Origin: a virus
Virus record (IMG/VR): IMGVR_UViG_3300002460_000129
Coordinates: 1 to 29,432 of that record
Length of the DNA stretch: 29,432 nucleotides
Direction: 5' to 3' (one strand)
Of this stretch, positions 5,036 to 23,200 are shown piece by piece; position 1 is the first letter of the stretch; the number at the start of each line of letters is the position of its first letter. The notes beneath the pieces were generated by a model that was not told where the DNA came from, searched no databases, and saw only the letters and a list, made by a program, of their open reading frames with translations. A program made the translations under genes and the position numbers.

Positions 5036-6091
5036 TTATTCTTCGCCATTAGCAAACTCTTTAATAATCTTTTTCACTTTGAACCCCTCGGCTTTCATTT
5101 CGTCCATCGCATCTTTATTATTAGCGGTCATTTTGTCCCCTTTCTTTACGCGCAAGAGGACGCGGTTCCATTTTGACACGGTGGGCAAGAACTTATCGCT
5201 GTATTCTCGCGGCTCTTTGAATCCATAGAGTTTGGAGAGATACTGTGAGTATTCTATTTTCAGATTCTTTGAGAACTTCCCCGCGTCCCAGTCAAAGATA
5301 ATCGGTTGTTCTAGCGGCGGTTGTTCATCGCGCCGCCAAAAATTGGTCATATCCTTGCAGAAAGTCCGCACCTCTTTCTCCACCACTTTATCACCTCGTA
5401 TGACCTCAAACTCAAACATACGAAGGTCATCTCGGCAGATGTAGATGAGCATTCCTCGGTCATAGCGCGAGCCGTTGAGTTGGATTTTGAGTTGCATACG
5501 GTGTGCCTTGATACTCTTACCCTTCCTTTCCATAGCATCCGCGCCGAATGAGGCAATACTCTTTATCTCAAACGGCATTTCGGGAAGTCCTTTAGGATAT
5601 TTCCGACTGATATGCTCAACGATAGAGAATGAAGCTCGTTTGAATACATCCGGCACATCCATTGTTTCAAGCTCTGCGCGTATTTTCTCAATGTCCGGCT
5701 TGCCGCCAACGATATAGTCAAGTCGCGCGGTCATCGGGAGCATTCCCTTATACTGATACTCCACCCGCTTCTGTTCGGCGCGAAGCAGTCCGGCGCGAAT
5801 AAGAACATTCTTCACAACCCATTCGCACACATCTCCCGCCTCAAACTTACGGAGAGCGCGGGCATTCGGAGGGTTCGTGGGTTTCTTGCCTTTCATTGAA
5901 AGAAAAACATCCACATATCCCCGCGCCATATCCGTAGCCCAGAGCCGGTCGCGTGCTTCAATCGATCTGCGTTCGGCGGTAGTGAGAGCGTGATTCCACA
6001 TTTCTGCGAGACCAAACGGATACGCGACTTTCTGAAACTTTGACGCTTTGAGCGAACGCATCTTTTTCTTCATATACGGTTTTCTTTTCAT
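5036..6091 (-). CDS. PD-(D/E)XK nuclease (RecB/Cas4-like)
   Basis: 351 residues with the ordered motifs of RecB-family nucleases: RKFEAGDVCEW with E90, TARLDYIV with D125, PFEIKS with E175 and K177, then a helix with Q200 and Q204 (HRMQLKIQLNG) followed by a beta strand (GMLIYICRDD). This is the Q-containing layout of Cas4 and phage exonucleases. No four-cysteine iron-sulphur cluster is visible, unlike Cas4 or AddB. With the DEDDh exonuclease, the ssDNA-binding candidate and the RecA-like gene it suggests a phage recombination system. The start overlaps a 45-residue upstream gene by four nt. Confidence 0.8.
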   Translation of the reverse strand: MKRKPYMKKKMRSLKASKFQKVAYPFGLAEMWNHALTTAERRSIEARDRLWATDMARGYVDVFLSMKGKKPTNPPNARALRKFEAGDVCEWVVKNVLIRAGLLRAEQKRVEYQYKGMLPMTARLDYIVGGKPDIEKIRAELETMDVPDVFKRASFSIVEHISRKYPKGLPEMPFEIKSIASFGADAMERKGKSIKAHRMQLKIQLNGSRYDRGMLIYICRDDLRMFEFEVIRGDKVVEKEVRTFCKDMTNFWRRDEQPPLEQPIIFDWDAGKFSKNLKIEYSQYLSKLYGFKEPREYSDKFLPTVSKWNRVLLRVKKGDKMTANNKDAMDEMKAEGFKVKKIIKEFANGEE

Positions 6092-7274: not shown

Positions 7275-7477
7275 TTTAGTTTTTGGCGTGTTCTGGGTTC
7301 GCCTTGTGAGTAAACCCAGAGAACGCGACACAAGGCACTCTAATAATTTCCTGTCTTTGCAGAACAGGCGAGAGAAAGCAATTGTTTGTTTCCTCACGCC
7401 CACTCTGCGGTGAGCGACCGACAAGTTGCTATCGTGTAGCGGAGCCGGAACTCCTTTGCTACCGTTGCTGTTGTCTA
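7275..7477 (-). promoter_or_regulatory. Highly structured leader or RNA region between divergent operons
   Basis: About 200 nt without a convincing gene, full of inverted repeats. Seven-bp arms at 7293-7299 and 7313-7319 are interleaved with eight-bp arms at 7301-7308 and 7329-7336. There are hairpins around CCTGT/ACAGG and CTCAC/GTGAG, and GTAGC plus GGAG pairs with CTCC and GCTAC near 7436-7462. If read leftward from the promoter near 7484 it would be the leader of the left operon. It matches no RNA family I can name. Confidence 0.45.
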
Positions 7478-8962: not shown

Positions 8963-9136
8963 ATGAAAAAAGAAACGATAGAACATAAGACAAGATTGAT
9001 AAAGGATAGGTTGGAATATTTGTCGCGATATTTACGCAGTATTTCTCCAAATGTGTCAAATTACCACAAACTAAAAGCGGAACATAAAAAACTAATGAGA
9101 AATCTCGTCTTTATGAAAATGAAAATACTCAGATAA
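8963..9136 (+). CDS. Basic coiled-coil-like protein, 57 residues
   Basis: A strongly basic, helical protein (MKKETIEHKTRLIKDRLEYL..., ending MKMKILR). Its ATG overlaps the stop of a five-codon micro-frame (8949-8966) that uses the duplicated start sequence. It is the last gene before the bidirectional terminator at 9170-9215. It might bind nucleic acid by charge alone; unknown. Confidence 0.5.
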   Translation: MKKETIEHKTRLIKDRLEYLSRYLRSISPNVSNYHKLKAEHKKLMRNLVFMKMKILR

Positions 9137-9169
9137 CCCCCACACCCAGTACGCACGAGGGGCGTGGGC

Positions 9170-9215
9170 AAGCAAAACACCCCTCTGGACGCGCTAGGCA
9201 AAGGGGTGTATGCTT
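9170..9215. terminator. Bidirectional intrinsic terminator
   Basis: ACACCCCT (9177-9184) pairs with AGGGGTGT (9202-9209), extended outward by AAGCA (9170-9174) with TGCTT (9211-9215). A-rich bases on the left and TTTCTT on the right give U-tracts in both directions. It lies between converging genes, 8963-9136 rightward and 9246-9461 leftward, exactly where such a terminator is expected. Confidence 0.65.
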
Positions 9216-9245
9216 TCTTGTAAGTGGCGACCTCTGGCGGGGTTG

Positions 9246-9461
9246 CTATTTCTTTTCGTTCATCAGTTTGCCGAAGAAGTCATTTAAGGCTCCAATAGCT
9301 TTCTGACTTGTTTTGTTGCTTCGTTCCCACCCATCCTCGCAATCGGTGTGTACATATTTCATTGCTCCGAGTAAAGCCATTCCGCTCCACGGGCCTCCGT
9401 CTGATTTTCCACACCAAGCGCATTTGGATTTGATAACACCAAGTTCTTTTGTGTCTTTCAT
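9246..9461 (-). CDS. Small CxxC...HxxC zinc-binding protein, 71 residues
   Basis: C14-x2-C17 (CAWCGK) and H38-x2-C41 (HTDC) give a LIM-like CCHC site, followed by a helical tail (KAIGALNDFFGKLMNE). The pattern echoes the 472-657 protein. It has its own extended -10 promoter (9498-9506) and a small CCCC-gaaa-GGGG hairpin in the leader. The zinc site is inferred from spacing; function unknown. Confidence 0.6.
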   Translation of the reverse strand: MKDTKELGVIKSKCAWCGKSDGGPWSGMALLGAMKYVHTDCEDGWERSNKTSQKAIGALNDFFGKLMNEKK

Positions 9462-9802: not shown

Positions 9803-10039
9803 TTAACGCCATTTTCTAACTTCCACTAAACGCCAGACCTGTTCTGTTCCATCACGCTTTGGAATGTATATTGTTGTCCCCTTTTTGCTATTAAATATCT
9901 TTTCCTCTTCCTTACGAATGAACGATATAAACTTACCGATACTAATTCTTCTAAATGTTCCACTACCAACTCCCCTTCGTTCTAAAGGAAATGCTTTATC
10001 AAAAGCTCTCTCCATTTCTGTATTATATTGTTTCTTCAT
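9803..10039 (-). CDS. Hypothetical basic protein, 78 residues
   Basis: Start chosen at ATG 10037-10039 (MKKQYNTEMERAFDKAFPLE) because the longer frame to 10147 overlaps the upstream gene heavily. The protein has a central helix (KFISFIRKEEEKIF) and ends with a strand-rich segment (TIYIPKRDGTEQVWRLVEV). No recognised family; it overlaps the upstream gene by 17 nt. Confidence 0.5.
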   Translation of the reverse strand: MKKQYNTEMERAFDKAFPLERRGVGSGTFRRISIGKFISFIRKEEEKIFNSKKGTTIYIPKRDGTEQVWRLVEVRKWR

Positions 10040-10286
10040 AGAGAGTGGTGTAGTGGGAGAGGGATTTCTTCCTTGAATGGGATGCTTTTGTTGCGATTTC
10101 TTTTCTTCGCGCGGCGGATAGTTTTTTAGCGCGGGCGATGCCTCCACTTGATGCTAACTCGGAGCGAATGGAACATCCATAACAAATGTTTAATGTCTCT
10201 GGAAACTTTTGCCCTTTTCTATGCCACATAGTAGAACCACAACGAGAACAGGGTTTTTTACTTATCACAATTTCTTTTGTTTTCAT
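10023..10286 (-). CDS. Zinc-ribbon protein with basic GG-ARA tail, 87 residues
   Basis: Start at ATG 10284-10286 (MKTKEIVISKKPCSRCGST). C13-x2-C16 and C35-x2-C38 form a zinc ribbon. The tail SGGIARAKKLSAARRKEIA resembles a helix found in many small phage proteins, probably nucleic-acid binding. The -10 box TATGAT lies only six nt before the start, implying a leaderless message. Confidence 0.6.
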   Translation of the reverse strand: MKTKEIVISKKPCSRCGSTMWHRKGQKFPETLNICYGCSIRSELASSGGIARAKKLSAARRKEIATKASHSRKKSLSHYTTLYEETI

Positions 10287-10292
10287 ATCAAC

Positions 10293-10298
10293 ATCATA
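10293..10298 (-). promoter_or_regulatory. -10 box placed six nt before a start codon
   Basis: On the minus strand TATGAT is followed by GTTGAT and then ATG. The best -35 (TTGTGT, 18-nt spacer) is weak. The geometry matches the HNH promoter at 1656-1684, so transcription probably starts at the ATG itself. Confidence 0.4.
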
Positions 10299-10344
10299 CA
10301 GGCAAGATAAAATAAACACAAGAAAAGTTATCCCCTCCTCCCCT

Positions 10345-10372
10345 TTGACACACCCCCGCTAGTTGCTATATT
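10345..10372 (+). promoter_or_regulatory. Strong promoter of the structured RNA
   Basis: A perfect -35 TTGACA (10345-10350), 16-nt spacer ending in TGC, and -10 TATATT (10367-10372). The TG dinucleotide makes it an extended -10 as well. The start point would be about 10380, the first base before the GGAGATGAA segment. One GTTATCCCC motif copy (10327-10335) lies ten nt upstream of the -35. Confidence 0.6.
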
Positions 10373-10379
10373 TGGGGTA

Positions 10380-10496
10380 TGGAGATGAAACACCAATCAG
10401 CAGTTTCGCGCACGGCGCAGTGCATTTTGGCTTCATCTCCAGACTGTGCTGTGCGCGAAGTTTCTGATTAAAACGCTTCACGGCGTTTTTTGTTTT
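10380..10496 (+). ncRNA. Candidate structured non-coding RNA, about 115 nt
   Basis: A complete small transcription unit: strong promoter, then a hairpin with 26-nt arms (10395-10420 with 10444-10469) pairing at 25 of 26 positions including four G-U, with a 23-nt loop, then an intrinsic terminator. The 5' end GGAGATGAA (10381-10389) is perfectly complementary to TTCATCTCC in the loop (10432-10440). The two pairings cannot readily coexist, so the RNA may switch folds during transcription or use the loop to bind another RNA. A 28-codon frame lies inside, with no ribosome site. It matches no RNA class I can name. Confidence 0.5.
10470..10496 (+). terminator. Intrinsic terminator of the structured RNA
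   Basis: AAAACGC (10470-10476) pairs with GCGTTTT (10483-10489) around a six-nt loop, followed by a run of six T, a G and four T. It immediately follows the long hairpin's 3' arm. Confidence 0.7.
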
Positions 10497-10659
10497 ATAG
10501 TCGTGGGGGGTATAACGGGGACGACTCTAATCACAAGCCCTGTTCCAGCGTAGGCTACTTCATGCCGTCAAACAGAAGGCAACTCAAGGGAATCTGCGCT
10601 TTCTTCTTCCATACTCTATGGGGGAGGGGGGCGCATCTACGCAATCTTAGGGAATCAAT
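10497..10659. other. Intergenic stretch with G-runs and one small hairpin
   Basis: No gene seen. AGTCGT (10499-10504) pairs with ACGACT (10521-10526) around a G-rich loop, and a second G-run lies at 10620-10631 shortly before the next gene. The region is purine-rich and might hold a promoter for the 10660 gene, but I cannot identify one with confidence. Confidence 0.3.
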
Positions 10660-10839
10660 ATGAAAATACTAATACCTAGAATACAGAGAGAAGAGTCAGA
10701 AATGGTAGATATAGGAAATGGATATAAGACAAGGAGAAAGATAAAGACAAAACGAGCGCGGAACAATTTCAAGAAAAATATGCCGAAGAAATTACGAAAA
10801 GAATGGGGAGAACGAATGGACTTTTTTAGGAGTCTATGA
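10660..10839 (+). CDS. Small basic protein, 59 residues
   Basis: MKILIPRIQREESEMVDIGN is followed by a lysine/arginine-rich segment (KTRRKIKTKRARNNFKKNM) and LRKEWGERMDFFRSL. The purine-rich coding strand and high charge are like the other small genes of this arm. It may bind nucleic acid through its basic middle; unrecognised. Confidence 0.5.
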   Translation: MKILIPRIQREESEMVDIGNGYKTRRKIKTKRARNNFKKNMPKKLRKEWGERMDFFRSL

Positions 10840-10855
10840 CCACACAACAAATAAT

Positions 10856-11128
10856 ATGGAGCTGATTCAGAATCTCTTTAACGAAGAACGAGTAATGGAG
10901 CGATTCAAACCAAACGGCAAGAAAGCAAGCAACGAGCGCGGCGATCTCTTAAAAGAATTAGCAACCCTCACGGGCTATCCGTTCGGCAGAATCCTCGCAA
11001 AAACCGCACATCTTAAAAACATAAATGATTACTATTATTTATTGAGTGTGATAAAGGATGATGTACGCACTGGACGAAAGAAAGATTACCGACATTCGCT
11101 CAATAGTTCTTTGTATCTACCCAAATAA
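10856..11128 (+). CDS. Hypothetical protein, 90 residues
   Basis: Mostly helical: an N-terminal LFNEERVMERFKPNGKK segment, then GDLLKELATLTGYPFGRILA, then a tyrosine-rich helix (INDYYYLLSVIKDDV) and a basic tail. The central helices could be a small DNA-binding or adaptor domain. It begins 16 nt after the preceding gene. An opposing frame at 11100-11285 overlaps its end but looks like a shadow. Confidence 0.6.
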   Translation: MELIQNLFNEERVMERFKPNGKKASNERGDLLKELATLTGYPFGRILAKTAHLKNINDYYYLLSVIKDDVRTGRKKDYRHSLNSSLYLPK

Positions 11129-11308
11129 GCATTACAACACAAAAAACGCTTCCGTGAGTGCATCTAAAAAACATAGACAATACACCGTATAATTCACCCT
11201 CCAAGTTCAACTTTGCTAAAAAGGGGATAACTTCCTTGCATTTAGCAGACCGCTTTGTTAGAGTATAGACATAAGAGAAACACATAAGACACTCTTACAA
11301 AAAACACT

Positions 11309-11467
11309 ATGAAAAGAATAAAAGAGCATAGTCAAACGTTAGAACTCGCGGCCTTCAAGGTTGCGGAAGATAGGTCAAAAAGCAACGCGCAAAAAGTATC
11401 CGCGATTCGTAAAATGGGATTTACTGGGTTGGAAGCAGGCGACATTATTCTTGCGGCGATGAAATAA
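11309..11467 (+). CDS. Small hypothetical protein, 52 residues
   Basis: MKRIKEHSQTLELAAFKVAE reads as an amphipathic helix, then KMGFTGLEAGDIILAAMK. The second half resembles a short phage repressor-like or structural helix. It follows a 180-nt gap with a GGGGATAAC copy (11223-11231) and TGCTAAA/TTTAGCA arms around it. Three nt separate it from the next gene. Confidence 0.5.
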   Translation: MKRIKEHSQTLELAAFKVAEDRSKSNAQKVSAIRKMGFTGLEAGDIILAAMK

Positions 11468-11469
11468 AT

Positions 11470-11622
11470 ATGACTCCCGAAGACATCAAAGAAGCTCACC
11501 GTCTCTTTTCACAGAAGGGCGGTCGGGCTACGTCTAAACGAAAGACCGAGGCCGTTCGCAGGAACGCACAGCAACCACGCCCGAATAGAAAGAAGCGATC
11601 CCGAACAGGCGTATCGCCATAA
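11470..11622 (+). CDS. Small Arg/Lys-rich protein, 50 residues
   Basis: MTPEDIKEAHRLFSQKGGRA continues with TSKRKTEAVRRN and RPNRKKRSRTGVSP. The KGGRAT plus basic helix resembles a recurring small phage protein that probably binds DNA. It is coupled to the 11309-11467 gene by two-nt spacing. Function not established. Confidence 0.55.
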   Translation: MTPEDIKEAHRLFSQKGGRATSKRKTEAVRRNAQQPRPNRKKRSRTGVSP

Positions 11623-11725
11623 AAAACACAACAAAAAACACTCCGCACTATGGGTGAGGTAGGGGAATAGTTATCCCCAGATGGTTATGTACACAAAGAG
11701 CGCATTATGATAATGTAGAGAAGAT

Positions 11726-11890
11726 ATGAGAAAACAAATATCACTTAAGCGATTGTATATGCTTGCGAATGGATATTTACTTCCGCGAGCTGATAAAGAA
11801 GGTTGGACGATAGAAGGCGCGAAATTAGAAATGGAAAGAATAGTAGATTTCTTGAAATATGTATCTATTCATAAAGACGATGTTCTATGA
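11726..11890 (+). CDS. Hypothetical protein, 54 residues
   Basis: MRKQISLKRLYMLANGYLLP then an acidic, aromatic helix. The stop overlaps the start of a ten-codon micro-frame (11887-11919), which in turn overlaps the next gene's start, making a chain of ATGA couplings. The gap before it holds a GTTATCCCC copy (11670-11678). No family seen. Confidence 0.55.
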   Translation: MRKQISLKRLYMLANGYLLPRADKEGWTIEGAKLEMERIVDFLKYVSIHKDDVL

Positions 11891-11915
11891 AACCACCTAA
11901 ATCAGTAAAGGAGAT

Positions 11916-12140
11916 ATGAAAAGAGATTTCAATTTAGAAGAAACATTAGAAACGTACTCTAAACTACCTATTCCCGGCCTTTCAGTAATGACAACTGGTC
12001 AATACCAAAGCAAAGTTTTCTATCACTTGAATGAATGGTATGGCTGGAGATTTTATCTGAAAGCAATAAGAAAACGCGATTGGAAAAGTTTACTCGGACA
12101 TATTAAAACTGAGTATTTCACACCCACTAAAAGCGTATGA
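11916..12140 (+). CDS. Hypothetical protein, 74 residues
   Basis: MKRDFNLEETLETYSKLPIP followed by QYQSKVFYHLNEWYGWRFYL and a basic helix (KAIRKRDWKSLLGHIK). It is aromatic-rich in the middle. An AAAGGAGAT sequence stands just before the ATG and helps choose it. The stop overlaps the next gene by four nt. Confidence 0.6.
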   Translation: MKRDFNLEETLETYSKLPIPGLSVMTTGQYQSKVFYHLNEWYGWRFYLKAIRKRDWKSLLGHIKTEYFTPTKSV

Positions 12141-12469
12141 AGCAAGCCGACCTCTGTATTCTTTCATTAGCCGAACACCGCGAGTGGCGCAGGGCGTATG
12201 AACTAGAACGGAAGATGGTCGGGAATGAGATGATTGGCTCGGAAAGCGATACGCGACTTTATGAGGTATTTGACAAGAATGTCCCCGACAAAGGAGAAGC
12301 GACAAGAGAAATAGACGGCGCGGTATACACCCTTGAAACAAAGAAAATCGGCGGTGCGCGATGGTGGCGTGCATTTCTCTTCAAGGAAAAACCCGCAAAG
12401 AAAATAGATTTTGTCCGGCATCCTCTTACCGGACAACTCATAACAACAGAACAATTCGCTCTTTTATGA
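12137..12469 (+). CDS. Hypothetical protein, 110 residues
   Basis: A charged N-terminal helix (EHREWRRAYELERKMVG), then a beta-rich part with the motif GGARWWRAFLFKEK and a C-terminal HPLTGQLITTEQF. The two tryptophans suggest a small globular domain. ATGA overlaps couple it on both sides, placing it with the NinG-like gene in a replication or recombination accessory operon. No family I can name. Confidence 0.6.
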   Translation: MKQADLCILSLAEHREWRRAYELERKMVGNEMIGSESDTRLYEVFDKNVPDKGEATREIDGAVYTLETKKIGGARWWRAFLFKEKPAKKIDFVRHPLTGQLITTEQFALL

Positions 12470-12915
12470 TTAAACGAACGGGTATCAAGCGCAGGAAGCC
12501 CACCAGAAGCCCCAAATTGGCTCGTAAACCACTTTCCATATCAAAATTGATAAAGGAGTGCGACCGCTTGTTTAGTATCAAGGTGCGGGCAAATAAGGGC
12601 AAAGTGAAATTAGAGGATATGGAGGGTAACGAAGTAAACCAGTGCTACACATGTCTCGGCATCTTTCTTATCAAGCGACTACACGCTGGACACTATCTCT
12701 CCCGGTGGTATAAATCAGCGAGGTGGGATTTTGACAATGCCAGACCCCAGTGTTTCGCCTGTAACATTATGAGAAAAGGGGATTCTATAAAGTTCCGCCA
12801 ACATTTAGTACAAGAAATCGGCGAGAAACGAGTAAAGGCCGTGGAAGCAAAAAGAAACGAACACACAAAACTCACCAGAGAATACCTTACCGATTTAATA
12901 GAAAAACTGAAATGA
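12466..12915 (+). CDS. ninG: NinG-like (Rap) recombination protein
   Basis: 149 residues from the ATG at 12466; an in-frame extension to 12361 overlaps the previous gene and is rejected. After a basic N-terminus (KRRKPTRSPKLARKP) come CYTCLG (C60, C63), HAGHYLSRWYKSARWDFDN with H73, H76 and N91, and PQCFACN (C96, C99). This is the zinc-bound HNH-like core of lambda NinG, an enhancer of recombination between short homologies. It fits with the RecA-like and nuclease genes of the window. ATGA overlaps join it to both neighbours. Confidence 0.8.
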   Translation: MIKRTGIKRRKPTRSPKLARKPLSISKLIKECDRLFSIKVRANKGKVKLEDMEGNEVNQCYTCLGIFLIKRLHAGHYLSRWYKSARWDFDNARPQCFACNIMRKGDSIKFRQHLVQEIGEKRVKAVEAKRNEHTKLTREYLTDLIEKLK

Positions 12916-13040
12916 AAATAGAAACAATGAAATGGATTTGCTCCACCTGCAAAAAAGAACAGAAAGGAGGAAACAGATACTCCAACCAAAAAGGAGGACA
13001 CGACTGCTGGAAATGTACATCCTATCTAAAAGGGGAATAA
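12912..13040 (+). CDS. Small zinc-ribbon peptide, 42 residues
   Basis: C10-x2-C13 (CSTCKK) and C32-x2-C35 (CWKC) with a Gly/Asn/Gln-rich loop form a clean zinc ribbon. The ATG overlaps the NinG-like stop (ATGA), so the two are translated together. A DNA- or RNA-binding partner role is possible. Confidence 0.55.
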   Translation: MKIETMKWICSTCKKEQKGGNRYSNQKGGHDCWKCTSYLKGE

Positions 13041-13047
13041 AAAATTA

Positions 13048-13076
13048 TTGACAAATAACTTATAATCGGATAATAT
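13048..13076 (+). promoter_or_regulatory. Promoter directly in front of the chaperonin gene
   Basis: Perfect -35 TTGACA (13048-13053), 17-nt spacer, -10 TAATAT (13071-13076), and the ATG at 13085 only eight nt later. There is no ribosome binding site, so the transcript would be leaderless or nearly so. A perfect TATAAT at 13061-13066 is also present but wrongly spaced for this -35. Confidence 0.6.
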
Positions 13077-13084
13077 AAAACTAT

Positions 13085-14818
13085 ATGTCTAAATCAACAT
13101 TGGTATGCAGTTCGGATAAGAAAGTTCTTGAGTATTTGAAACATGGCGTAGATGCTATAGCGATTCCGGTCAGTAGGACACTTGGGCCAGAAGCGAAAAC
13201 AACTTTGATGTATCGGACATACAATCGCGGGCCGAGGAATGTCGATGATGGATTTTATACTGCCGAGGTTATACAGCCCAAAAATCCATTCGTGAAGTTA
13301 GTTGCAGAGTTTTTCAAAGAAGCCACAATGCGTACCAATCGCAAGGTTGGAGACGGCACAAGCGCAACCACTGTTTTGGCGCGGTCTCTTTTCAACGACA
13401 TATATGCAAAACTCCAAGCGAAATCTAGTGGATATTCTTCGGGAAAAACCGAATCCAAAGGCGTCATGCAACTCAAAAAAGATATTTTAGAGGAAGCAAA
13501 GAAAATCAAAGAGGAAATAACGAAAGTGGCGAAGCCAATAAAAACGCTCGCAGAACTTGAAAAGATTTCGGCGGTTTCACTCGGAGAAGATAATGACACC
13601 TCAAAACTCATTGCAAAAATGGCGTATGAAGTGGGGGTGGACGGATTCCTAGATGTCGTAGAGGGATATAAGGGCGAGATAGAAACGGAAATCGTCAAAG
13701 GACACAGATTTCACGCCAAAATCTGCGGAAAGGCATTCGTCAATAAGCCGGAGCGATACGAAATGGTCATAGAGGATTGCCCTGTATTTATTACGAATCA
13801 CAAAATGGACAATGATATGCTTGCTCGTTTCGTAATCAGCAAGTTTGAATCAACGAAGGCAATCCTTCTCGCCCCCGACTTCTCGGAGAATGTATTGGTA
13901 AATATGGTGCTTGCACGGCAAAACGGCACATTCCTTTGGCCTGTAAAAGTTCCAGGGCTTCGCACAGAGCAATTAGAAGACCTTGCTATCTTCTGCGGGG
14001 CAACACTCATAGACAAAAACAAGGGAATGAAATTGGAACAAGTTACGAAAGGAGTAATGGGATTTCTAGAGAAACTCATCGTCAAAGACACAGAAACGAA
14101 AGAAGATGCGGTGGCTCTCGGAGGCAGAGGAGAACAAGTAGAGCAGTACACGGAAACCGAGCGTGTAGAGGGAAAGAAACAAACAAAACTGGTAGAAAAA
14201 TCCGCCATTCAAAAGCGTATAGAAATCCTCAAAGGACAACTAGAGGAAACAAAAGAGCCACAATTCCAAATGTTAATGAAACGAAGAGTCGCCTCAATGG
14301 CTTCGGCGGGCGGGGTTATCCGTGTCGGAAGTCCAACTGATGCCGAGTCGCTCCCGCTCAAACTCAAGATAGAGGACACAGTATTTGCTTGTAGAGCCGC
14401 GCTCAAATCGGGCTATGTAAAAGGTGGGGGACTTTGCTTAAAAGAAATCGCAGACAAACTTCCCGAAGGTCATATCTTAAAAGAATCCCTCCTCGCTCCC
14501 TACAAGCAAATCCAAGAAAACGCAGGAGGAACACTTGACATAGGAAAAGACATCATTGACCCAGCAGATGCGGTATACTATACGGTAGAGCACGCGACTT
14601 CAGTGGTGGCCTCGCTTATCACGGTAGGAAATCTCATTGCAGAAGAACCGGAGAATGAAGTCGGTGAAGGTGAGAAGGCGATAGCAAAAGCAATAGAGAG
14701 TTTTGTTCTGATGACAAAAAAAGAGAAAGGAATACTTACAGAGAATGAAAAGTTGGCGATGGACGATGCAAACGGCGGACTTACGCAGGACGAGATTATG
14801 AGTTTGGACGTTGGTTGA
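13085..14818 (+). CDS. groEL: Phage-encoded GroEL-like chaperonin (Cpn60)
   Basis: 577 residues. Group I chaperonin ATPase features are kept: RTLGPE (31-36), D55 in DDGFYTAE (equivalent to GroEL D52), VGDGTSATT with D90 (GroEL D87), D431 in IEDTVFACRAALKSG (GroEL D398), the GGG loop soon after, and D492 in IIDPAD (GroEL D495). The apical part has NKPE and VPGLRTEQLEDLA as in GroEL. It is about 30 residues longer than GroEL, with an insertion near residues 325-370 and an acidic tail in place of the GGM repeat. It probably folds capsid proteins in the host cytoplasm. No GroES is seen; it may use host GroES or none. Confidence 0.9.
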   Translation: MSKSTLVCSSDKKVLEYLKHGVDAIAIPVSRTLGPEAKTTLMYRTYNRGPRNVDDGFYTAEVIQPKNPFVKLVAEFFKEATMRTNRKVGDGTSATTVLARSLFNDIYAKLQAKSSGYSSGKTESKGVMQLKKDILEEAKKIKEEITKVAKPIKTLAELEKISAVSLGEDNDTSKLIAKMAYEVGVDGFLDVVEGYKGEIETEIVKGHRFHAKICGKAFVNKPERYEMVIEDCPVFITNHKMDNDMLARFVISKFESTKAILLAPDFSENVLVNMVLARQNGTFLWPVKVPGLRTEQLEDLAIFCGATLIDKNKGMKLEQVTKGVMGFLEKLIVKDTETKEDAVALGGRGEQVEQYTETERVEGKKQTKLVEKSAIQKRIEILKGQLEETKEPQFQMLMKRRVASMASAGGVIRVGSPTDAESLPLKLKIEDTVFACRAALKSGYVKGGGLCLKEIADKLPEGHILKESLLAPYKQIQENAGGTLDIGKDIIDPADAVYYTVEHATSVVASLITVGNLIAEEPENEVGEGEKAIAKAIESFVLMTKKEKGILTENEKLAMDDANGGLTQDEIMSLDVG

Positions 14819-14838
14819 TTAAAAGATACAAATAATTT

Positions 14839-14901
14839 ATGGCGATACCACGAGCTGCATACGAAAGGAGTAGAAAAAGTGAAGTCAATGGTTCACTATA
14901 G
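14839..14901 (+). CDS. Possible 20-residue basic peptide
   Basis: MAIPRAAYERSRKSEVNGSL starts 20 nt after the chaperonin gene, with no clear ribosome site. It overlaps the next short frame (14888) by 14 nt. Either may be a leader that passes ribosomes to the 14992 gene. Low confidence. Confidence 0.2.
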   Translation: MAIPRAAYERSRKSEVNGSL

Positions 14902-14989
14902 AATGGAAGCGCAAAAGAACTTCCAAAACAGAAAGAATAACGACAATTACAACTGTAATTCAAGTTATTGGACAAAAAATAAGAACTAA
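14888..14989 (+). CDS. Possible 33-residue Asn-rich peptide
   Basis: MVHYRMEAQKNFQNRKNNDN ends in a Ser/Tyr/Trp segment and stops two nt before the 14992 start. An AATTACA-AC-TGTAATT inverted repeat lies inside it (14946-14961) and could be a protein-binding site instead. Real translation is uncertain. Confidence 0.25.
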   Translation: MVHYRMEAQKNFQNRKNNDNYNCNSSYWTKNKN

Positions 14990-14991
14990 CT

Positions 14992-15642
14992 ATGCTTACC
15001 CTGCTTCAGGCAACAGCTATACTCTCAATCCTAATTGCATTTGGCGTAGATAATTCAACTGTTGACAACATACGAGCAATTCTTATTCCCTCACAAACAT
15101 TAGGAGTAACTCAACCAATTATTATGCCCAAAACCCCACAGAAAGTAATTATCACGCCAACAACGCAAGCAGAATCTCTACCTGCACAATCAGCAGAGAT
15201 AGCATCAACAACTATTCTTGTCGTTCCGCCGGTAGTAGAAGCCGTAACAAAAATAGAATCGCAAGGGGCCTCGCACTACAAGTTCTACAATCGGACGGGA
15301 GGTTCTATTCAGTATAAAACTGCCACAATAAAAGTGTACAGGATACAGATAAAAGAACCCCTACCGAAAGATGTGTCTATAGAGTTGTATTACGGAGAGA
15401 ATCTTGTATCAAAAGCTGGATACTGGAGCCAGGAAGGACACTTAGTAGAAGGAGAAGTACCATTCACACTCAACGCAACAATGGGAACAACAGAAGCGAA
15501 TGCACTCGTAATTGAATTACCGATAAATCTGACAGTGAATAAAAACACGGAACATACATTCCGCACAGAAATCCACGCAGACAATCAAAACATAAACAGC
15601 GGAAACTCCTACCAAGCAAACCTCATCTCATTGAATGAGTAG
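14992..15642 (+). CDS. Membrane-anchored protein with Pro/Thr-rich stalk and beta domain
   Basis: 216 residues. Residues 2-18 (LTLLQATAILSILIAFG) form a signal anchor; residues 30-85 are Pro/Thr/Ser/Ala-rich (PKTPQKVIITPTTQ, TTILVVPPVVE); residues 95-216 are a beta-sandwich-like domain with RTGGSIQYKTATIKVYRIQ and a long Thr/Asn-rich C-terminus. The composition fits exposed proteins of Parcubacteria and their phages. It lies between chaperonin and terminase genes. It may be an envelope or virion-associated protein. No enzymatic motif. Confidence 0.6.
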   Translation: MLTLLQATAILSILIAFGVDNSTVDNIRAILIPSQTLGVTQPIIMPKTPQKVIITPTTQAESLPAQSAEIASTTILVVPPVVEAVTKIESQGASHYKFYNRTGGSIQYKTATIKVYRIQIKEPLPKDVSIELYYGENLVSKAGYWSQEGHLVEGEVPFTLNATMGTTEANALVIELPINLTVNKNTEHTFRTEIHADNQNINSGNSYQANLISLNE

Positions 15643-15643
15643 T

Positions 15644-15772
15644 ATGAATCACAAACAGAAACGACATCTCGCAATAAAACTCCTATCCCGACAAGAGAGG
15701 AAAGAACACACACCTATCTTTTCAGGGTTTAATTGGGCAATGAGAAATGCGGCGCGGACTGCGCGGGTATGA
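15644..15772 (+). CDS. Small basic protein, 42 residues
   Basis: MNHKQKRHLAIKLLSRQERK then FSGFNWAMRNAARTARV. It starts one nt after the preceding stop and ends one nt before the TerS ATG (15774), so it is wedged into the operon. It is likely a real tiny gene of unknown function. Confidence 0.5.
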   Translation: MNHKQKRHLAIKLLSRQERKEHTPIFSGFNWAMRNAARTARV

Positions 15773-15773
15773 T

Positions 15774-16154
15774 ATGGCTACAGCACTTCAGAGTGATTTA
15801 GCGGAGGCAATAGTAAAGAATCAATCGCTCCCAAGAGACAAGAGAAAGAATAAACGAGATGTGTTGGTTTCGGTTGGTTATAGCACAAAAGTTGCAAAAC
15901 ACAAACCGAAGGAAATAATGGAATCAAAAGGAGTGAGGCAAGCTCTTTCAGATTTTGGGCTTACAGAGGAATTGATAACGACAGCGTTGGTTTACGACAT
16001 TGAAAAGAAACCGAAACGTAGGGTAAAAGAACTGTCATTGGGCGCAGAGATATTGGGAATGAAGAAGCAGGGAAACGAAGGAAATAAGACATTGATACTT
16101 GTAGTATCTGGCGAAACAGCACAACGATATGAAGTTAACCCTAGCACAAGCTGA
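15774..16154 (+). CDS. terS: Terminase small subunit
   Basis: 126 residues from the ATG at 15774; an upstream in-frame ATG at 15747 lies within the previous gene. The sequence SVGYSTKVAKHKPKEIMESKGVRQALSDFGLTEELI matches the helix-turn-helix region of phage small terminases, which recognise the packaging site and load the large subunit. The 16129 terL start overlaps its end by 26 nt. Position immediately before terL makes the identity likely despite low sequence specificity. Confidence 0.75.
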   Translation: MATALQSDLAEAIVKNQSLPRDKRKNKRDVLVSVGYSTKVAKHKPKEIMESKGVRQALSDFGLTEELITTALVYDIEKKPKRRVKELSLGAEILGMKKQGNEGNKTLILVVSGETAQRYEVNPSTS

Positions 16155-17358
16155 AATTGCATTAGATAGACATAGATTCCGCGTCATAAATTGCGGAAGG
16201 CGTTTTGGCAAAACAACACTCGCTATTGACCAGATGAAAGGGAGAGCGGCCATTGCTAATTCACGAATTGCATATATCGCTCCGACCTATCAGCAAGCGC
16301 GAGATATCGCGTGGAGTCAATTAAAGAAAGATTGCACCGAGGCGGCAAGCAACATAAACGAATCACGACTTGAAATAACTTTAGTCAATGGTTCACAGAT
16401 AATCCTAAGAGGATGGGAAAGTATTGAAACACTCCGAGGACAGCAATTTGATTTGATAGTGATAGACGAAATCGCAATGATGAGGAACTTCTGGGTGAAC
16501 TGGCAAGAGGTTATCCGGCCGACACTCACGGATACGAAAGGCGAGGGAATGTTCATCTCAACGCCAAAAGGATTCAATCACTTCTACGACCTGTTCGGAA
16601 TGGAAGCAAAAGACACCGATTACAAGTCATTTCACTTCACCAGTTATGACAACCCGTTTCTTCCAAAAGAAGAGATAGACAAGGCAAAAAAAGAAATAAC
16701 CGAGGACAGATTCGCCCAAGAATATTTGGCTGACTTCCGCAAAACCGAAGGACTTGTCTATAAAGAGTTTGACCGCGAACGTCATGTTTATTCTGATGAT
16801 GATGTGGAAGCAGACCCTATAAACAGAATTAAACTATTCGGCGGTGTGGACTTCGGCTTTACCAATCCTTGTGCGGTGCTTTCAATAGAGAAAGACAGCG
16901 ATGCGCGATATTTCATTACAAGCGAATGGTATAAAACCCAACAAACAGACGCTCAAATTGCTGATTATGTCGCCGCGCTCAAATGGAATGAATGTTATCC
17001 CGACCCCGAAAGCGCAAGTGGAATAGAGGAATTAAAACGCCGAGGAATAAATGTGCGCGAAGTGATAAAGAATAAGGACAGTATACGAAATGGAATAAAT
17101 GTGGTGAGGGAACTATTCAAGTCGAATCGCCTTTATATTCATGAGTCCTGCCAGAATCTTATTTGGGAATTGGAAACATATTCGTATCCCGATAGGAGAT
17201 CAATGCACAATGAGGATGAAAATCCGATAAAGGAGAATGACCATTTGTGCGATGCCGCCAGATATGCCCTTTCAATGGAACAAACGATAGTATCTTCGGG
17301 GAGTGTAGTTATCCACAAGCCTCCTATTGCAGGATACGCGCGTATGAGGGGACGATAG
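16129..17358 (+). CDS. terL: Terminase large subunit
   Basis: 409 residues. Walker A GRRFGKT (23-29), Walker B LIVIDE (109-114), the Q-motif-like YQQAR region, and LRGQQFDL before Walker B define the packaging ATPase. The nuclease domain has D241 in GGVDFGF and D371/D375 in DHLCDAARYAL. It cuts concatemeric DNA and pumps it into the prohead through the portal. All key residues are present, so it should be active. A 17364 promoter follows for the portal segment. Confidence 0.95.
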   Translation: MKLTLAQAEIALDRHRFRVINCGRRFGKTTLAIDQMKGRAAIANSRIAYIAPTYQQARDIAWSQLKKDCTEAASNINESRLEITLVNGSQIILRGWESIETLRGQQFDLIVIDEIAMMRNFWVNWQEVIRPTLTDTKGEGMFISTPKGFNHFYDLFGMEAKDTDYKSFHFTSYDNPFLPKEEIDKAKKEITEDRFAQEYLADFRKTEGLVYKEFDRERHVYSDDDVEADPINRIKLFGGVDFGFTNPCAVLSIEKDSDARYFITSEWYKTQQTDAQIADYVAALKWNECYPDPESASGIEELKRRGINVREVIKNKDSIRNGINVVRELFKSNRLYIHESCQNLIWELETYSYPDRRSMHNEDENPIKENDHLCDAARYALSMEQTIVSSGSVVIHKPPIAGYARMRGR

Positions 17359-17360
17359 TG

Positions 17361-17369
17361 TGGTATAAT
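17361..17369 (+). promoter_or_regulatory. Extended -10 promoter before the portal segment
   Basis: TGG-TATAAT is a perfect extended -10. The predicted start point falls on the ATG at 17377, seven nt after the -10 box, giving another leaderless message. There is no -35 of note. It would boost portal expression independently of terL. Confidence 0.55.
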
Positions 17370-17376
17370 CTTGACA

Positions 17377-17559
17377 ATGAAAAAGAAAAAGAAATCTGAC
17401 ATTCAAGCACGACTCACTGTTTATGGAATTGGAGAGATGAGTACCAAGCAATATAACTTCTTCAAGAAATGGATTATGATGGTAGCAAAAGAACTCACGA
17501 CTGAAAATAGAAAAGTGTTCAATCAAAAGGTCTTTAGACATACGCTATACAAACCATGA
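17377..17559 (+). CDS. Small basic protein preceding the portal gene
   Basis: 60 residues from ATG 17377; the frame could begin at TTG 17371, but that codon lies inside the promoter spacing. MKKKKKSDIQARLTVYGIGE has a lysine run, then a helix (QYNFFKKWIMMVAKELTTE). The stop overlaps the portal ATG, so it is coupled to portal translation. Unknown function. Confidence 0.5.
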   Translation: MKKKKKSDIQARLTVYGIGEMSTKQYNFFKKWIMMVAKELTTENRKVFNQKVFRHTLYKP

Positions 17560-19499
17560 TTGAAGACATCATAAAAGACAGTTCTCCAACCTCCTCATAT
17601 ATTCCAAGTAGAGACATTATTGAGTTTAGTTCAATGGTAAAAAAAGATTACGCTACCGGACATCAGATACTCAATAAAAACTGGAACGAGCTGAATGAAA
17701 GTTCAGTACTGGACGATATGAATCGTGGGCGCAGGATGTTCAATGCGTTTGTCGATGAATCGTTTGAAGACCCGAACGATGCGTGGAAATGGCGAGGAAC
17801 GCGCTCAATGGCTCGTAACAAAGGAATCGCTATGCACGCGAATCTTACAGCCGGTTATATGCTTCCCTCTTTCCAAGCGCAGAATGATGATGATGAAATA
17901 GACCGAGGCGTATCCGAGTTTATGACCGACCTCGTGGAATGGATGGCGCAAGATGAGAACTCTAACTATAAAGAAAACTTCCTTTCGCTTGTGTTCGCAA
18001 TGGAAACTGACCCTGTTGTATATCTCGGCGCGGAATATCAGAAAGTAATGCAAGAGATAAAGATTAAGGGGGAATCGGGGAAATACACGAAGAAAGAAAT
18101 ACTGGATGAAGTGTTGTCTGGCTTCAAAGCACCTATTTATACTGCAGACCAAGTGCTTATCAGCAACGCATTTGAAAGGAATATCCAAAAGCATCGTTTC
18201 AATATCACGCGGAAATGGATTGAGTATCAGGAAGCCGAAGCGAAATATGGGAAGCACGAGAACTGGAATTATGTCGGTGCCGGACGACAAACAGTCTATA
18301 ACGAAGACGATGGACTATTTTATGAAATCAAAGACGAGGAGCATCCATCTCTCGTGGAGGAAGTAACCTACAAGAACCGTAGAGAAGATTGTGAGGTGTG
18401 TTTCCTAGGAGGTGTGTATATGGGTAATACGAACGTAGACAACAATCCTATTAAGCATAGAGACAACTTCGGTGCGCCGCGCTATAACCTCCAGCAATTC
18501 GGTTTCTATCCTATCGGCTCGCACTTCTTTTTCTACAAGTCAATGATGAACGCGATGCGCTGGGATAACGCACTCTATGACGCTTCAACAGAAATTATTG
18601 CTAACAGGGCTATCCTTGACGCAGAGATGCCTATCGCCGTGTCAGGTTCAGACAAGATAGACGGAGATATCATTTATCCGAACGCTGTGGTGGCGTTCGC
18701 GGATAAGGAGACAAAGGTTTCTCCATTGATGCCGCCGTCAAATCTCAATCCTCTTATCGCTTCGCTCAATATGACCGAACAGAGTATGTCCGAGGCATCG
18801 GTATCGGAAACAATCGCGGGGCAACTTCCCCCCGCCTCACAGAAAGCATTTACTGTCGCACAAGCACAAGCAAACTCAAAGAAAATTATCGGTGGGGTTG
18901 CAAAGGGACTTGCTTCTTCAATAGCACGATATGGACTTCTTATGGGGGATATAGCAATCAATAATCTCTCAATTCCGCAGGTGGACGACATCGTAGGCGA
19001 GCATACGAAATTGAAATACAAGAAGTTTATGCTCCAAAATAAAGAAGTCGGCGGACAACGAATGTCCAAACAATTGATGTTCAGCGAAGACCTTATCGGC
19101 AAGGAAATGACCGAGGACGAGATGCGAATGGCGAATCTTAATCTCTATGAAGAATCCGAGAAGAACAAAATGGCGATACTGAAAGCGAATCCCGAAATCT
19201 TCGCCAAGATGAAGTATTATGCAAGAGCCGACTACAAAGAAGTATTCCAGCAAAGTGATGAAACAATGCAGGCACTCTTGATGGCTCTTGAAGCGCAGTT
19301 CAGAATGAATCCGTATGTTGACCAAGAAGCACTGGTGCGCGAGACGTTCCACTCATTCTTCCACAGCAAGGCGGACAAGTTTATTCAAAAGCCACAAATG
19401 CAGGGAATACCGAGTCCGATGGGCAGTGATGGTTTTGGAGCGCAGGTAAAGCAGAAGACATTGTCCCCTGCTATCGGTGCGGCCAGTGCAACTGGTTAG
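17556..19499 (+). CDS. Portal protein
   Basis: 647 residues, between terL and scaffold/capsid genes, with a size and composition of a podovirus-like portal: an acidic N-terminus, the segment WKWRGTRSMARNKGIAMHAN, a long helical middle, and a C-terminal region with FMLQNKEVGGQRM and ALLMALEAQFRMNP. Portals form a dodecameric ring at one vertex, through which TerL pumps DNA. No precise family signature can be quoted, so the call rests on synteny and length. The start is ATGA-coupled to the previous gene. Confidence 0.75.
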   Translation: MIEDIIKDSSPTSSYIPSRDIIEFSSMVKKDYATGHQILNKNWNELNESSVLDDMNRGRRMFNAFVDESFEDPNDAWKWRGTRSMARNKGIAMHANLTAGYMLPSFQAQNDDDEIDRGVSEFMTDLVEWMAQDENSNYKENFLSLVFAMETDPVVYLGAEYQKVMQEIKIKGESGKYTKKEILDEVLSGFKAPIYTADQVLISNAFERNIQKHRFNITRKWIEYQEAEAKYGKHENWNYVGAGRQTVYNEDDGLFYEIKDEEHPSLVEEVTYKNRREDCEVCFLGGVYMGNTNVDNNPIKHRDNFGAPRYNLQQFGFYPIGSHFFFYKSMMNAMRWDNALYDASTEIIANRAILDAEMPIAVSGSDKIDGDIIYPNAVVAFADKETKVSPLMPPSNLNPLIASLNMTEQSMSEASVSETIAGQLPPASQKAFTVAQAQANSKKIIGGVAKGLASSIARYGLLMGDIAINNLSIPQVDDIVGEHTKLKYKKFMLQNKEVGGQRMSKQLMFSEDLIGKEMTEDEMRMANLNLYEESEKNKMAILKANPEIFAKMKYYARADYKEVFQQSDETMQALLMALEAQFRMNPYVDQEALVRETFHSFFHSKADKFIQKPQMQGIPSPMGSDGFGAQVKQKTLSPAIGAASATG

Positions 19500-21680: not shown

Positions 21681-21687
21681 TTCTCTT

Positions 21688-22236
21688 ATGAGAATCCCGT
21701 GGAATAAAGGAACAAAAGGGATAGTAGTCGCTTGGAATAAGGGACTTAAACTATCTACGATGCCTAAATATTCAGGAATGGGATTTCAGAAGGGGAATAA
21801 GTTAGCAGATAATTCCGAAAGTAAATCCACTCAATTCAAGAAAGGTGAAAGGGTTTCTCCGACTACTGAATTTCAGAAAGGATATGCTTCTTGGAATAAA
21901 GGGAATGAGGGGTTTCTTTCTGGTGAAAAACACTGGAAATGGATTAAAGACAGAACACAATTAGTGAAAAATGAGAATAAACATCTTGACGGATGTTATA
22001 GAGAATGGATGTTTTCAGTAAAAACTAGAGATAGTTGGAAATGTAGAATATCTAATCTCGATTGTAGTGGTCGCTTGGAGGCACATCACATTCTCAATTG
22101 GAAAGATTACCCAGAATTGCGTTATAAAATTAACAACGGCATCACTTTATGCCACGCTCATCATCCAAGAGGACGAGAGGAAGAGAAACGGCTATCTCCT
22201 TACTTTCAGGATTTAGTGTCAGTATCAAAAGTATAA
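21688..22236 (+). CDS. HNH homing endonuclease inserted before the capsid gene
   Basis: 182 residues from ATG 21688. Repeated WNKG and FQKG motifs (IPWNKGTKG, FQKGNKLADN, SWNKGNEGF) make up a NUMOD3-like DNA-binding part. The C-terminal HNH core is CRISNLDCSGRLEAHHI, LRYKINNGITLCHAHH. It sits seven nt after the decoration gene and ends one nt before the capsid gene's TTG start codon, with the TAA as part of GTATAATTTG. It is likely a mobile gene that spares, or even takes part in, capsid translation. Confidence 0.88.
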   Translation: MRIPWNKGTKGIVVAWNKGLKLSTMPKYSGMGFQKGNKLADNSESKSTQFKKGERVSPTTEFQKGYASWNKGNEGFLSGEKHWKWIKDRTQLVKNENKHLDGCYREWMFSVKTRDSWKCRISNLDCSGRLEAHHILNWKDYPELRYKINNGITLCHAHHPRGREEEKRLSPYFQDLVSVSKV

Positions 22237-22237
22237 T

Positions 22238-23200
22238 TTGGCCTATACAGGAGGACACACAGCGAACTTGTCAAGTGATGATTGTCAAACCGCGATTGAT
22301 GAAGTGATGTACGAAACATTTACTGCCGAACAGGTACCCGCGTATCTCTCAGCACAGGATGGTTTCTTCTTCAAAACAGATTCAATTGATAGTATGGCTT
22401 TCATCTACGATGAGGACTCCAATGTTGGTGAGTTTGAGGAAACCGGTGAGCAAGAGGAAATCGTCTCTACCTCGACCCGTATCGGGAACACAAAGACGAA
22501 GCGTGTTACGAAGTACACGAAACAAGTCCCTATTTCTTGGGAGGCGTTCAAAACTTCACAGCAAGGCAAACGTGAGAAAATCGGACAGCAAATCGGTTAT
22601 CGCGCTCGCACGACTCAAGACCATCAGTCCATTATCAACACCTACGGCGATTTCACTGCAGGTTCCATCAACACAACTCCTGACGGAGATGCGGTTGCTT
22701 CGGACTCACACACAACGCTCACGGGTGTAACAGTGGACAATCTTGAGACAGCCGCAATGACCGCAGACGCTCTGTGGACTGATGTTCAGTCGCTTGCGAA
22801 TCAGAAAGGACAGGATGGCGATGCGGGGTCTCATCAGTTTGAGGCACTCGTGGTTCCGTTCATTCTCTACAGGACAGCGCGTGAGACACTCGGTTCTCCG
22901 CTTATGCCAGGGGGTGGTGAGAACAACATCAACGTCTTTGAGACGGATTATGGACAGGTACGCCTGAAGGCATCTATCTTCCTTGGTTCTACCTATAACT
23001 CAGCATCGAATGCAAACACGACATTCACCCTTCTTGGGCGAAATCACGAGGTGCGCCGCAAGGTGCTATCGGGTCTTGAGACATCAATGCTTGAGCCGAA
23101 GTACACCGACAATGATACCTATGTAATGCGTGCGAAGTTCTCGGAAGCGCATTTCCCGGGTACCTGGACGGCAATTGTCAGTGCCACGGGCGCAGCTTAA
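22238..23200 (+). CDS. Major capsid protein (HK97-like fold expected)
   Basis: 320 residues starting at TTG 22238 (MAYTGGHTANLSSDD). Key parts are an N-arm with YETFTAEQVPAYLSAQ, the strand EEIVSTSTRIGNTKTKRVTK, the PISWEAFKTSQQGK segment, the QFEALVVPFILYRTARETLGS spine-like helix and strand, and a C-terminal FSEAHFPGTWTAIV. Size, position after scaffold and decoration genes, and the beta-hairpin/helix pattern fit an HK97-type capsid. No ribosome binding site is visible, so translation is probably coupled to the HNH gene. The start codon is unusual for such a highly made protein. Confidence 0.8.
   Translation: MAYTGGHTANLSSDDCQTAIDEVMYETFTAEQVPAYLSAQDGFFFKTDSIDSMAFIYDEDSNVGEFEETGEQEEIVSTSTRIGNTKTKRVTKYTKQVPISWEAFKTSQQGKREKIGQQIGYRARTTQDHQSIINTYGDFTAGSINTTPDGDAVASDSHTTLTGVTVDNLETAAMTADALWTDVQSLANQKGQDGDAGSHQFEALVVPFILYRTARETLGSPLMPGGGENNINVFETDYGQVRLKASIFLGSTYNSASNANTTFTLLGRNHEVRRKVLSGLETSMLEPKYTDNDTYVMRAKFSEAHFPGTWTAIVSATGAA

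Follow-up and report, generated by a model that had tools for sequence, protein, structure and literature searches.

The question raised by this locus is what a compact structured unit, placed between two divergent gene blocks and equipped with its own predicted promoter and terminator, does for the phage that carries it. The window, i.e., the whole stretch of DNA analysed, is an entire IMG/VR virus record of 29,432 bases and belongs to a tailed phage with genes of terminase, portal, a divergent GroEL, a RecA/UvsX-like protein and NinG. The portal protein, named from its position and its relatives without a PHROG match, had no matches among 50,697 phage records, which points to a lineage for which that collection has no close isolate. 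The unit at 10345-10496 lies between leftward genes, the last of which occupies 10023-10319, and rightward genes starting from 10660. The first of the latter would be the probable beneficiary of any read-through of the terminator. No other promoter-like sites with at least nine matches were found on the + strand between 10372 and this gene, and only two sites with at least ten matches are present on the same strand at 10300-17600, namely, the unit's own and one at 13048, upstream of groEL.

Several other features of the record and its relatives were observed. The GroEL-type chaperonin encoded at 13085-14818 and its relatives are divergent, with about 27% identity to phage and cellular chaperonins; a divergent GroEL is common to this phage lineage, for which the phage collection contains no portal relatives. 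The region 9132-9253, located between convergent genes, is highly stable on both strands (-41.4 and -37.5 kcal/mol per 85 nt) and is probably a bidirectional terminator. The terminase large subunit of two close relatives, L004 (2063-4081) and L002, contains about 257 extra codons, inserted in frame and intein-like at the ends (CFIAGT...LLVSN/C), for which no Pfam intein domain was reported; this insertion is absent from the window (position about 17245), L003 and L005. An insertion with a homing-endonuclease-like frame, lacking a Pfam match, is present between two structural genes at about 21682-22248 of the window and is missing in the close relative L003, where the alignment jumps from 5655 to 5686, so that it seems to have been gained or lost recently.

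A promoter, a long hairpin and an intrinsic terminator had been listed for the unit in a preliminary description, and all three were confirmed in position (Table 1); the term 'self-contained gene', used there for 10345-10496, is consistent with the predicted promoter and terminator. The RNA is predicted to start at 10379 or 10380. In the hairpin, 10395-10420 and 10444-10469 are paired at 25 of 26 positions, with four G-U pairs in the + strand RNA and a C-U mismatch at 10401, and the extra pair 10421-10443 extends the A:A' hairpin to 27 positions. Its RNA folding energy is -51 kcal/mol (z = -5.5), and none of 200 shuffles was equally stable. The terminator has the G+C-containing stem (10470-10489) and the T run, TTGTTTTATA, expected of the intrinsic type. 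The nine-nucleotide complementarity between the 5' end and the loop, also part of the preliminary description, is real: GGAGATGAA at 10381-10389 is perfectly complementary to TTCATCTCC at 10432-10440, and addition of the pair T10380-A10441 makes it 10 bp in length (10380-10389 with 10432-10441). The four segments thus follow one another as w-A-w'-A'; w is close to the start of the RNA, w' is adjacent to A', and the geometry is w 10 bp, L1 5, A 27, L2 10 and L3 1.

Table 1. Parts of the unit at 10345-10496, other features of the window, and units of the same layout in related phages. The gene at 10660-10839 and the gene names given after L173, L085, L080 9917 and the L138 group were read from the sequence.
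Feature	Positions	Strand	Description
Sigma-70 type promoter	10345-10372	+	TTGACA 10345-10350, 16-nt spacer, TATATT 10367-10372, TG-extended -10; 11 of 12 consensus matches
Word w, RNA 5' end	10380-10389	+	TGGAGATGAA; perfect reverse complement of 10432-10441
Linker L1	10390-10394	+	5 nt; from sequence and geometry
Arm A	10395-10421	+	5' side of the long hairpin; from hairpin fold and layout search
Word w' in hairpin loop	10432-10441	+	TTCATCTCCA; complement of w
Arm A'	10443-10469	+	3' side of the long hairpin; begins 1 nt past w'
Intrinsic terminator	10470-10496	+	AAAACGCTTCACGGCGTTTT and T-rich tail; predicted in both constrained folds
First likely gene past the terminator	10660-10839	+	59 codons; AGGGA upstream of ATG
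Second window unit (candidate)	7284-7336	-	w GCCTTGTG, A 17 nt, 'act', w' CACAAGGC, A' 17 nt; then ATG of a 52-aa frame, MKTKNIFWTV...
L173			w GAGCAAGTTCG, 34-position stem; ATG of replication-initiator-like gene straight after A'
L176, L125			upstream of a gene starting MANPQKENGYT
L085			upstream of groEL
L080	9917		upstream of groEL
L118			promoter TTGACG-17-TATAAT
L138, L157, L081, L083			upstream of a scaffold-like gene, downstream of portal

The statement that the unit contains no convincing gene holds with a reservation, as a 30-codon frame opens at ATG 10379 and is closed by a stop at 10469-10471. A leaderless gene, the mRNA of which would form a hairpin by accident, is nevertheless a highly improbable reading of this frame: its ATG coincides with the predicted RNA start, but frames at the same place are missing or very short in many related units, and such a length is not rare by chance. 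No promoter-like site was found on the minus strand at 10345-10500.

The arrangement of the segments has a consequence for folding. With a linker of 5 nt against a stem of 27 positions, complete w:w' and complete A:A' pairings cannot coexist, by a geometric argument, and an H-type pseudoknot was rejected for the window unit on the same ground. In a calculated equilibrium series of RNA lengths, the pairing probability of w:w' was 0.97 with the RNA 3' end at 10443-10452, and A:A' became dominant once the end had reached about 10458, rising to 94%. In constrained folds of the RNA ending at 10495, the energies were -38.3 kcal/mol for the w:w' fold and -47.3 kcal/mol for the A:A' fold, with the terminator present in both, so that a trp-like terminator switch or simple attenuator is unsupported for the window unit. 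Calculation thus supports the earlier view that the RNA is structured and has two pairings which exclude each other, the 5' one being the first to form: w:w' is predicted for the nascent and A:A' for the complete RNA of the window unit. In all 16 units folded, w:w' was likewise the predicted pairing when the RNA was cut at w'. That the 5' pairing is then 'displaced', as had been proposed, is perhaps too quick. Along the lowest nested path, the barrier for exit from w:w' is about 29 kcal/mol in the window unit, compared with 8-26 kcal/mol in relatives, values which are upper bounds neglecting invasion through pseudoknotted intermediates; this modelling suggests that the first fold need not disappear at once.

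The A:A' fold leaves both w, as a single-stranded 5' end, and w', in the loop, free and unable to meet in cis. Such an arrangement would be expected if the 5' end of one transcript paired with the loop of another, leading to dimerisation or copy counting. Intermolecular pairing is improbable, however, as pairing in cis during transcription is predicted to come earlier, and neither the tight abutment of w on A and of w' on A' nor the Shine-Dalgarno site in A' of the small members described below would be explained by it.

Searches by sequence recovered no relatives of the unit. A second copy of 10345-10496 was not found in the rest of its own record, homologues were absent from the 50,697 phage records, and 22 related records contained only scraps of 14-29 nt. 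Two pattern scans of IMG/VR returned chance matches in coding DNA. For the close portal relatives (92-95% identical protein), the available sequences stop short of the unit region, and no relatives were found with the RecA-like protein and a left-arm protein as queries. No Rfam 15 matches at gathering score were detected in the window or in the loci of four relatives, and a permissive search yielded only sub-threshold hairpin look-alikes, in agreement with the preliminary description, according to which no known RNA family fits. 6S RNA was rejected in view of the continuous stem without a central open bubble and the lack of an Rfam match. The divergent junction of L006 is similar, but such a hairpin is absent there; none of the strong hairpins inspected in L009, L010 and L014 had the layout. 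The string GGCTAGGGATAT/GGCTAGGAATAT was found in the divergent junctions of the distantly related phages L006 (520-760) and L016 (1330-1380) and is perhaps a common promoter or operator element. The structured junction of L016 was left out of the count of units, its words overlapping the promoter itself.

Related loci were therefore characterized by anatomy only, through a scan of 68 portal loci and 18 GroEL loci for a word w upstream of a hairpin that carries the reverse complement of w in its loop; cellular chaperonins from the GroEL alignment served as controls only. The portal and GroEL relatives yielded about 20 units arranged as w-A-short gap-w'-A', most of which were ascertained through the w:w' complementarity itself. 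Their letters are unrelated, and they are often located right after a -10 box and head to a Shine-Dalgarno site, a start codon or a terminator. Layout matches scoring at least 20 numbered 23 in 1.24 Mb of these relatives; of two shuffled sets, one contained a single such match and the other none, and none was present in 513 kb of DNA from unrelated phages and cells. The window unit scores 32, and the best matches in the two shuffled 1.24 Mb sets remained below 21. The genomes of lambda, T4 (50 kb) and T7 gave one weak match with a 6-nt word.

Complementarity of at least 8 nt between the 5' flank and the loop was present in 12 of 175 leader hairpins of the family, vs. a mean of 0.79 and a maximum of 4 with re-dealt flanks (300 trials), and in none of 67 control leader hairpins. 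Since each hairpin is read on both strands, undirected 5' and 3' flanks are alike, and only counts with an assigned direction were used for the mirror control: 11 for the 5' flank vs. 1 for the 3' flank with 25-nt flanks, and 12 vs. 3 with 15-nt flanks. In 13 of 24 units, w is preceded at a distance of 4-19 nt by a -10 hexamer (at least 5 of 6 matches), vs. 8.4% of control positions. Units ahead of groEL or its operon neighbour were found in only about 4 of the 17 groEL loci examined; the unit is not bound to one gene.

These counts bear on an origin of the layout by chance or as a mutational by-product of palindrome formation. Hairpins are abundant in intergenic DNA of phages, and weak look-alikes do occur in unrelated sets, yet every control (shuffles, permuted flanks, the mirror flank and control genomes) gave much lower values than the family, both helices covary, and a single template switch would produce the order w, A, A', w' rather than w, A, w', A'. 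Such an origin is very unlikely. An element acting at the DNA level, i.e., two interleaved inverted repeats serving as an operator, origin or recombination site, is equally hard to credit. The divergent gene junction near the GC-skew minimum would suit it, but the orientation of the units is fixed relative to promoters and genes, Shine-Dalgarno sites stand at a fixed place, and differences between the arms are of the G-U kind in 52 cases vs. 11 of the A-C kind in the RNA sense (16 units, with a search score that favours G-U).

Compensatory changes were found in related units. The layout 8-17-3-8-17 is common to L153 and L166 (two copies, phage G011) and L143, which can be aligned without gaps; the BLAST match between L153 and L166 spans A through A' in full, with w excluded. 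In these three units, which were first found through w, all 8 pairs of w:w' are kept and 5 of the 8 are changed on both sides; for A:A', 94% of cells are paired and 7 of 17 pairs are changed on both sides. Slid controls of the alignment were all far lower. The preliminary description had named as a refutation a change of arm bases without compensatory pairing in homologous loci. No homologue of the exact unit was found, so that covariation holds for the relatives and not for the window unit, but in units of this design from related phages, both helices have compensatory changes.

A covariance model built on the pairing of the A stem alone recovered, outside the training set, L169, L080 9917-9963, the minus strand of the window at 7284-7336, and L111 3107-3162, with 7, 7, 8 and 6 pairs of w/w' in register, respectively. 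The E-values for L080, the window site and L111 are 0.08-0.24 (0.15 for the window), weak if taken alone; nothing better than E 3.6 was obtained in 557 kb of controls. Weak matches in L114, L121 and L003 lacked the layout. The site at 7284-7336 was found twice independently, by layout and by the stem-only model, and a second unit is probably present there, ahead of the 52-aa frame.

The segments that follow w' differ among the relatives. In L143, L153 and L169, the 3' ends of A' are represented by AAGGAG, AGAGGG and CTAAGGG, located about 8 nt before an ATG; L166 resembles these Shine-Dalgarno members (ATAGGG, 11 nt), and L080 is likewise similar. The small Shine-Dalgarno members are 53 nt in length. 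In L118, L138, L157 and L081, the terminator overlaps A', the end of A' being the left half of the terminator. L173, L125, L134 and L111 have a U-rich A' with a start codon 0-14 nt downstream; the gene after the units of L176 and L125 presumably encodes a protein resembling phage replication protein O. In the unit at 10380, a Shine-Dalgarno site in A' is absent and the terminator adjoins A'; L080 7246 is likewise of the terminator-adjacent type. An A' that carries a Shine-Dalgarno site or overlaps a terminator was found in L143, L153, L169, L118, L138, L157 and L081, and not in the 10380 unit; this feature is that of two sub-classes and not of the whole class.

Two further readings are affected by this anatomy. 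If the structures merely stabilised phage mRNAs against decay from the 5' end, the position of w at or near the predicted RNA start and the nearly blunt RNA 5' end predicted for the first fold would be accounted for. One hairpin would be enough for this, however, and there would be no need for two covarying helices that exclude each other, nor for a Shine-Dalgarno site in A', which makes simple protection unlikely. Somewhat less likely still is a stand-alone small RNA, the loop w' of which would bind ribosome-binding sites of other mRNAs, as the preliminary description had suggested for mRNAs of the phage. The unit does have its own predicted promoter and terminator, and the apical loop CUUCAUCU is exposed in the final fold. 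The 9-mer GGAGATGAA/TTCATCTCC, however, is present at only two sites of the window, both inside the unit, and the complement of the loop is thus found only at the unit's own 5' end; in relatives, w' matches the 5' flank of its own RNA, and many units lie directly on a start codon. The suggested action in trans on phage mRNAs is not supported; one on host targets may still occur.

The reading that we favour, with moderate confidence, is that the 10380 unit is a member of a class of bistable, ligand-free 5'-leader switch RNAs, defined by geometry and belonging to an uncultivated phage lineage. According to the calculations, w would pair with w' while the polymerase is still near the hairpin; once A' has emerged, the far more stable A:A' would form and exclude w:w', as hardly any linker separates w from A or w' from A'. 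In members with a Shine-Dalgarno site in A', w:w' would confine A in its loop and leave the site free, and closure of A:A' would hide it. Where the terminator overlaps A', the anatomy implies that the A:A' fold competes with termination, which may in turn affect expression. Hence w:w' would be permissive in the Shine-Dalgarno class and restrictive in the class with an overlapping terminator, and no single rule fits the two. The anatomy, the calculated order of stability and the covariation in relatives have been demonstrated; that expression follows the fold is an inference. The folding history, and not a ligand, would set the expression of the next phage gene, as a kinetic gate or timer, and the timing of transcription or the loading of ribosomes may decide which fold results.

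For the 10380 member, the terminator makes a leader RNA of roughly 115 nt, preceding the rightward genes (10660 onwards), the most likely product. This member has no Shine-Dalgarno site in A', and its terminator is predicted in both folds; the fold may decide the exposure of the 5' end, the lifetime of the RNA or occasional read-through, which is the weakest step of the proposed mechanism.

A more general proposal is put forward tentatively, at somewhat less than even chances: this phage lineage may use, as a general timing switch, an RNA module free in sequence, defined by geometry and independent of ligands, in which mutually exclusive hairpins are interleaved at the start of the transcript and which is present in several copies per genome with differing w words, before groEL, replication initiators and scaffold-like genes. 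Of interest here is one anatomical rule without conserved letters, which is repeated ahead of many genes of one lineage and is accompanied by compensatory change in two exclusive helices. Such elements escape ordinary homology and covariance searches, so that the layout rule provides a direct route for finding them, and the 53-nt Shine-Dalgarno members are simple to test as reporters. The class is a variant of cotranscriptional leader switches and may act as a timer.

Among known systems, trp-type attenuators and the expression platforms of riboswitches contain exclusive leader hairpins, one of which is tied to a terminator or a Shine-Dalgarno site. The mutual exclusion of leader hairpins is shared with the units described here, but segments are paired there as 1:2, 2:3 and 3:4, whereas the unit pairs 1 with 3 and 2 with 4; in addition, the class has no conserved aptamer or leader peptide, its sequence being free and its geometry kept. 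H-type pseudoknots, e.g., those of the preQ1 and SAM-II riboswitches, have an identical topological order of four segments. In these the helices stack, whereas in the units, with linkers of 0-5 nt against stems of 17-34 bp, they exclude each other.

Closer in their dynamics are RNAs with metastable nascent structures. The type I toxin mRNAs hok/Sok and aapA3/IsoA3 have metastable 5' hairpins (PMC6733600), which, similar to what is predicted for w:w', form in the nascent RNA and give way to a stable inactive fold. These systems, however, need a toxin frame, long-range pairing with the 3' end and an antisense RNA; at 10345-10500, neither a toxin frame nor an antisense promoter was found, the sole frame being of 30 codons and unshared. 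In the leader of the MS2 maturation gene, translation is possible during the lifetime of a transient structure, until the site becomes hidden by the final cloverleaf (discussed in PMC6733600), and the likeness would consist in a first-formed nascent structure that delays the stable fold blocking ribosome binding. MS2 is an RNA phage with a cloverleaf at one locus, whereas the units belong to a DNA phage lineage and are represented by two interleaved exclusive hairpins with a fixed order of segments. Metastable leaders have so far been known as single cases (MS2, hok, aapA3); unlike that of MS2, the layout described here is reused before several genes, with unrelated sequences.
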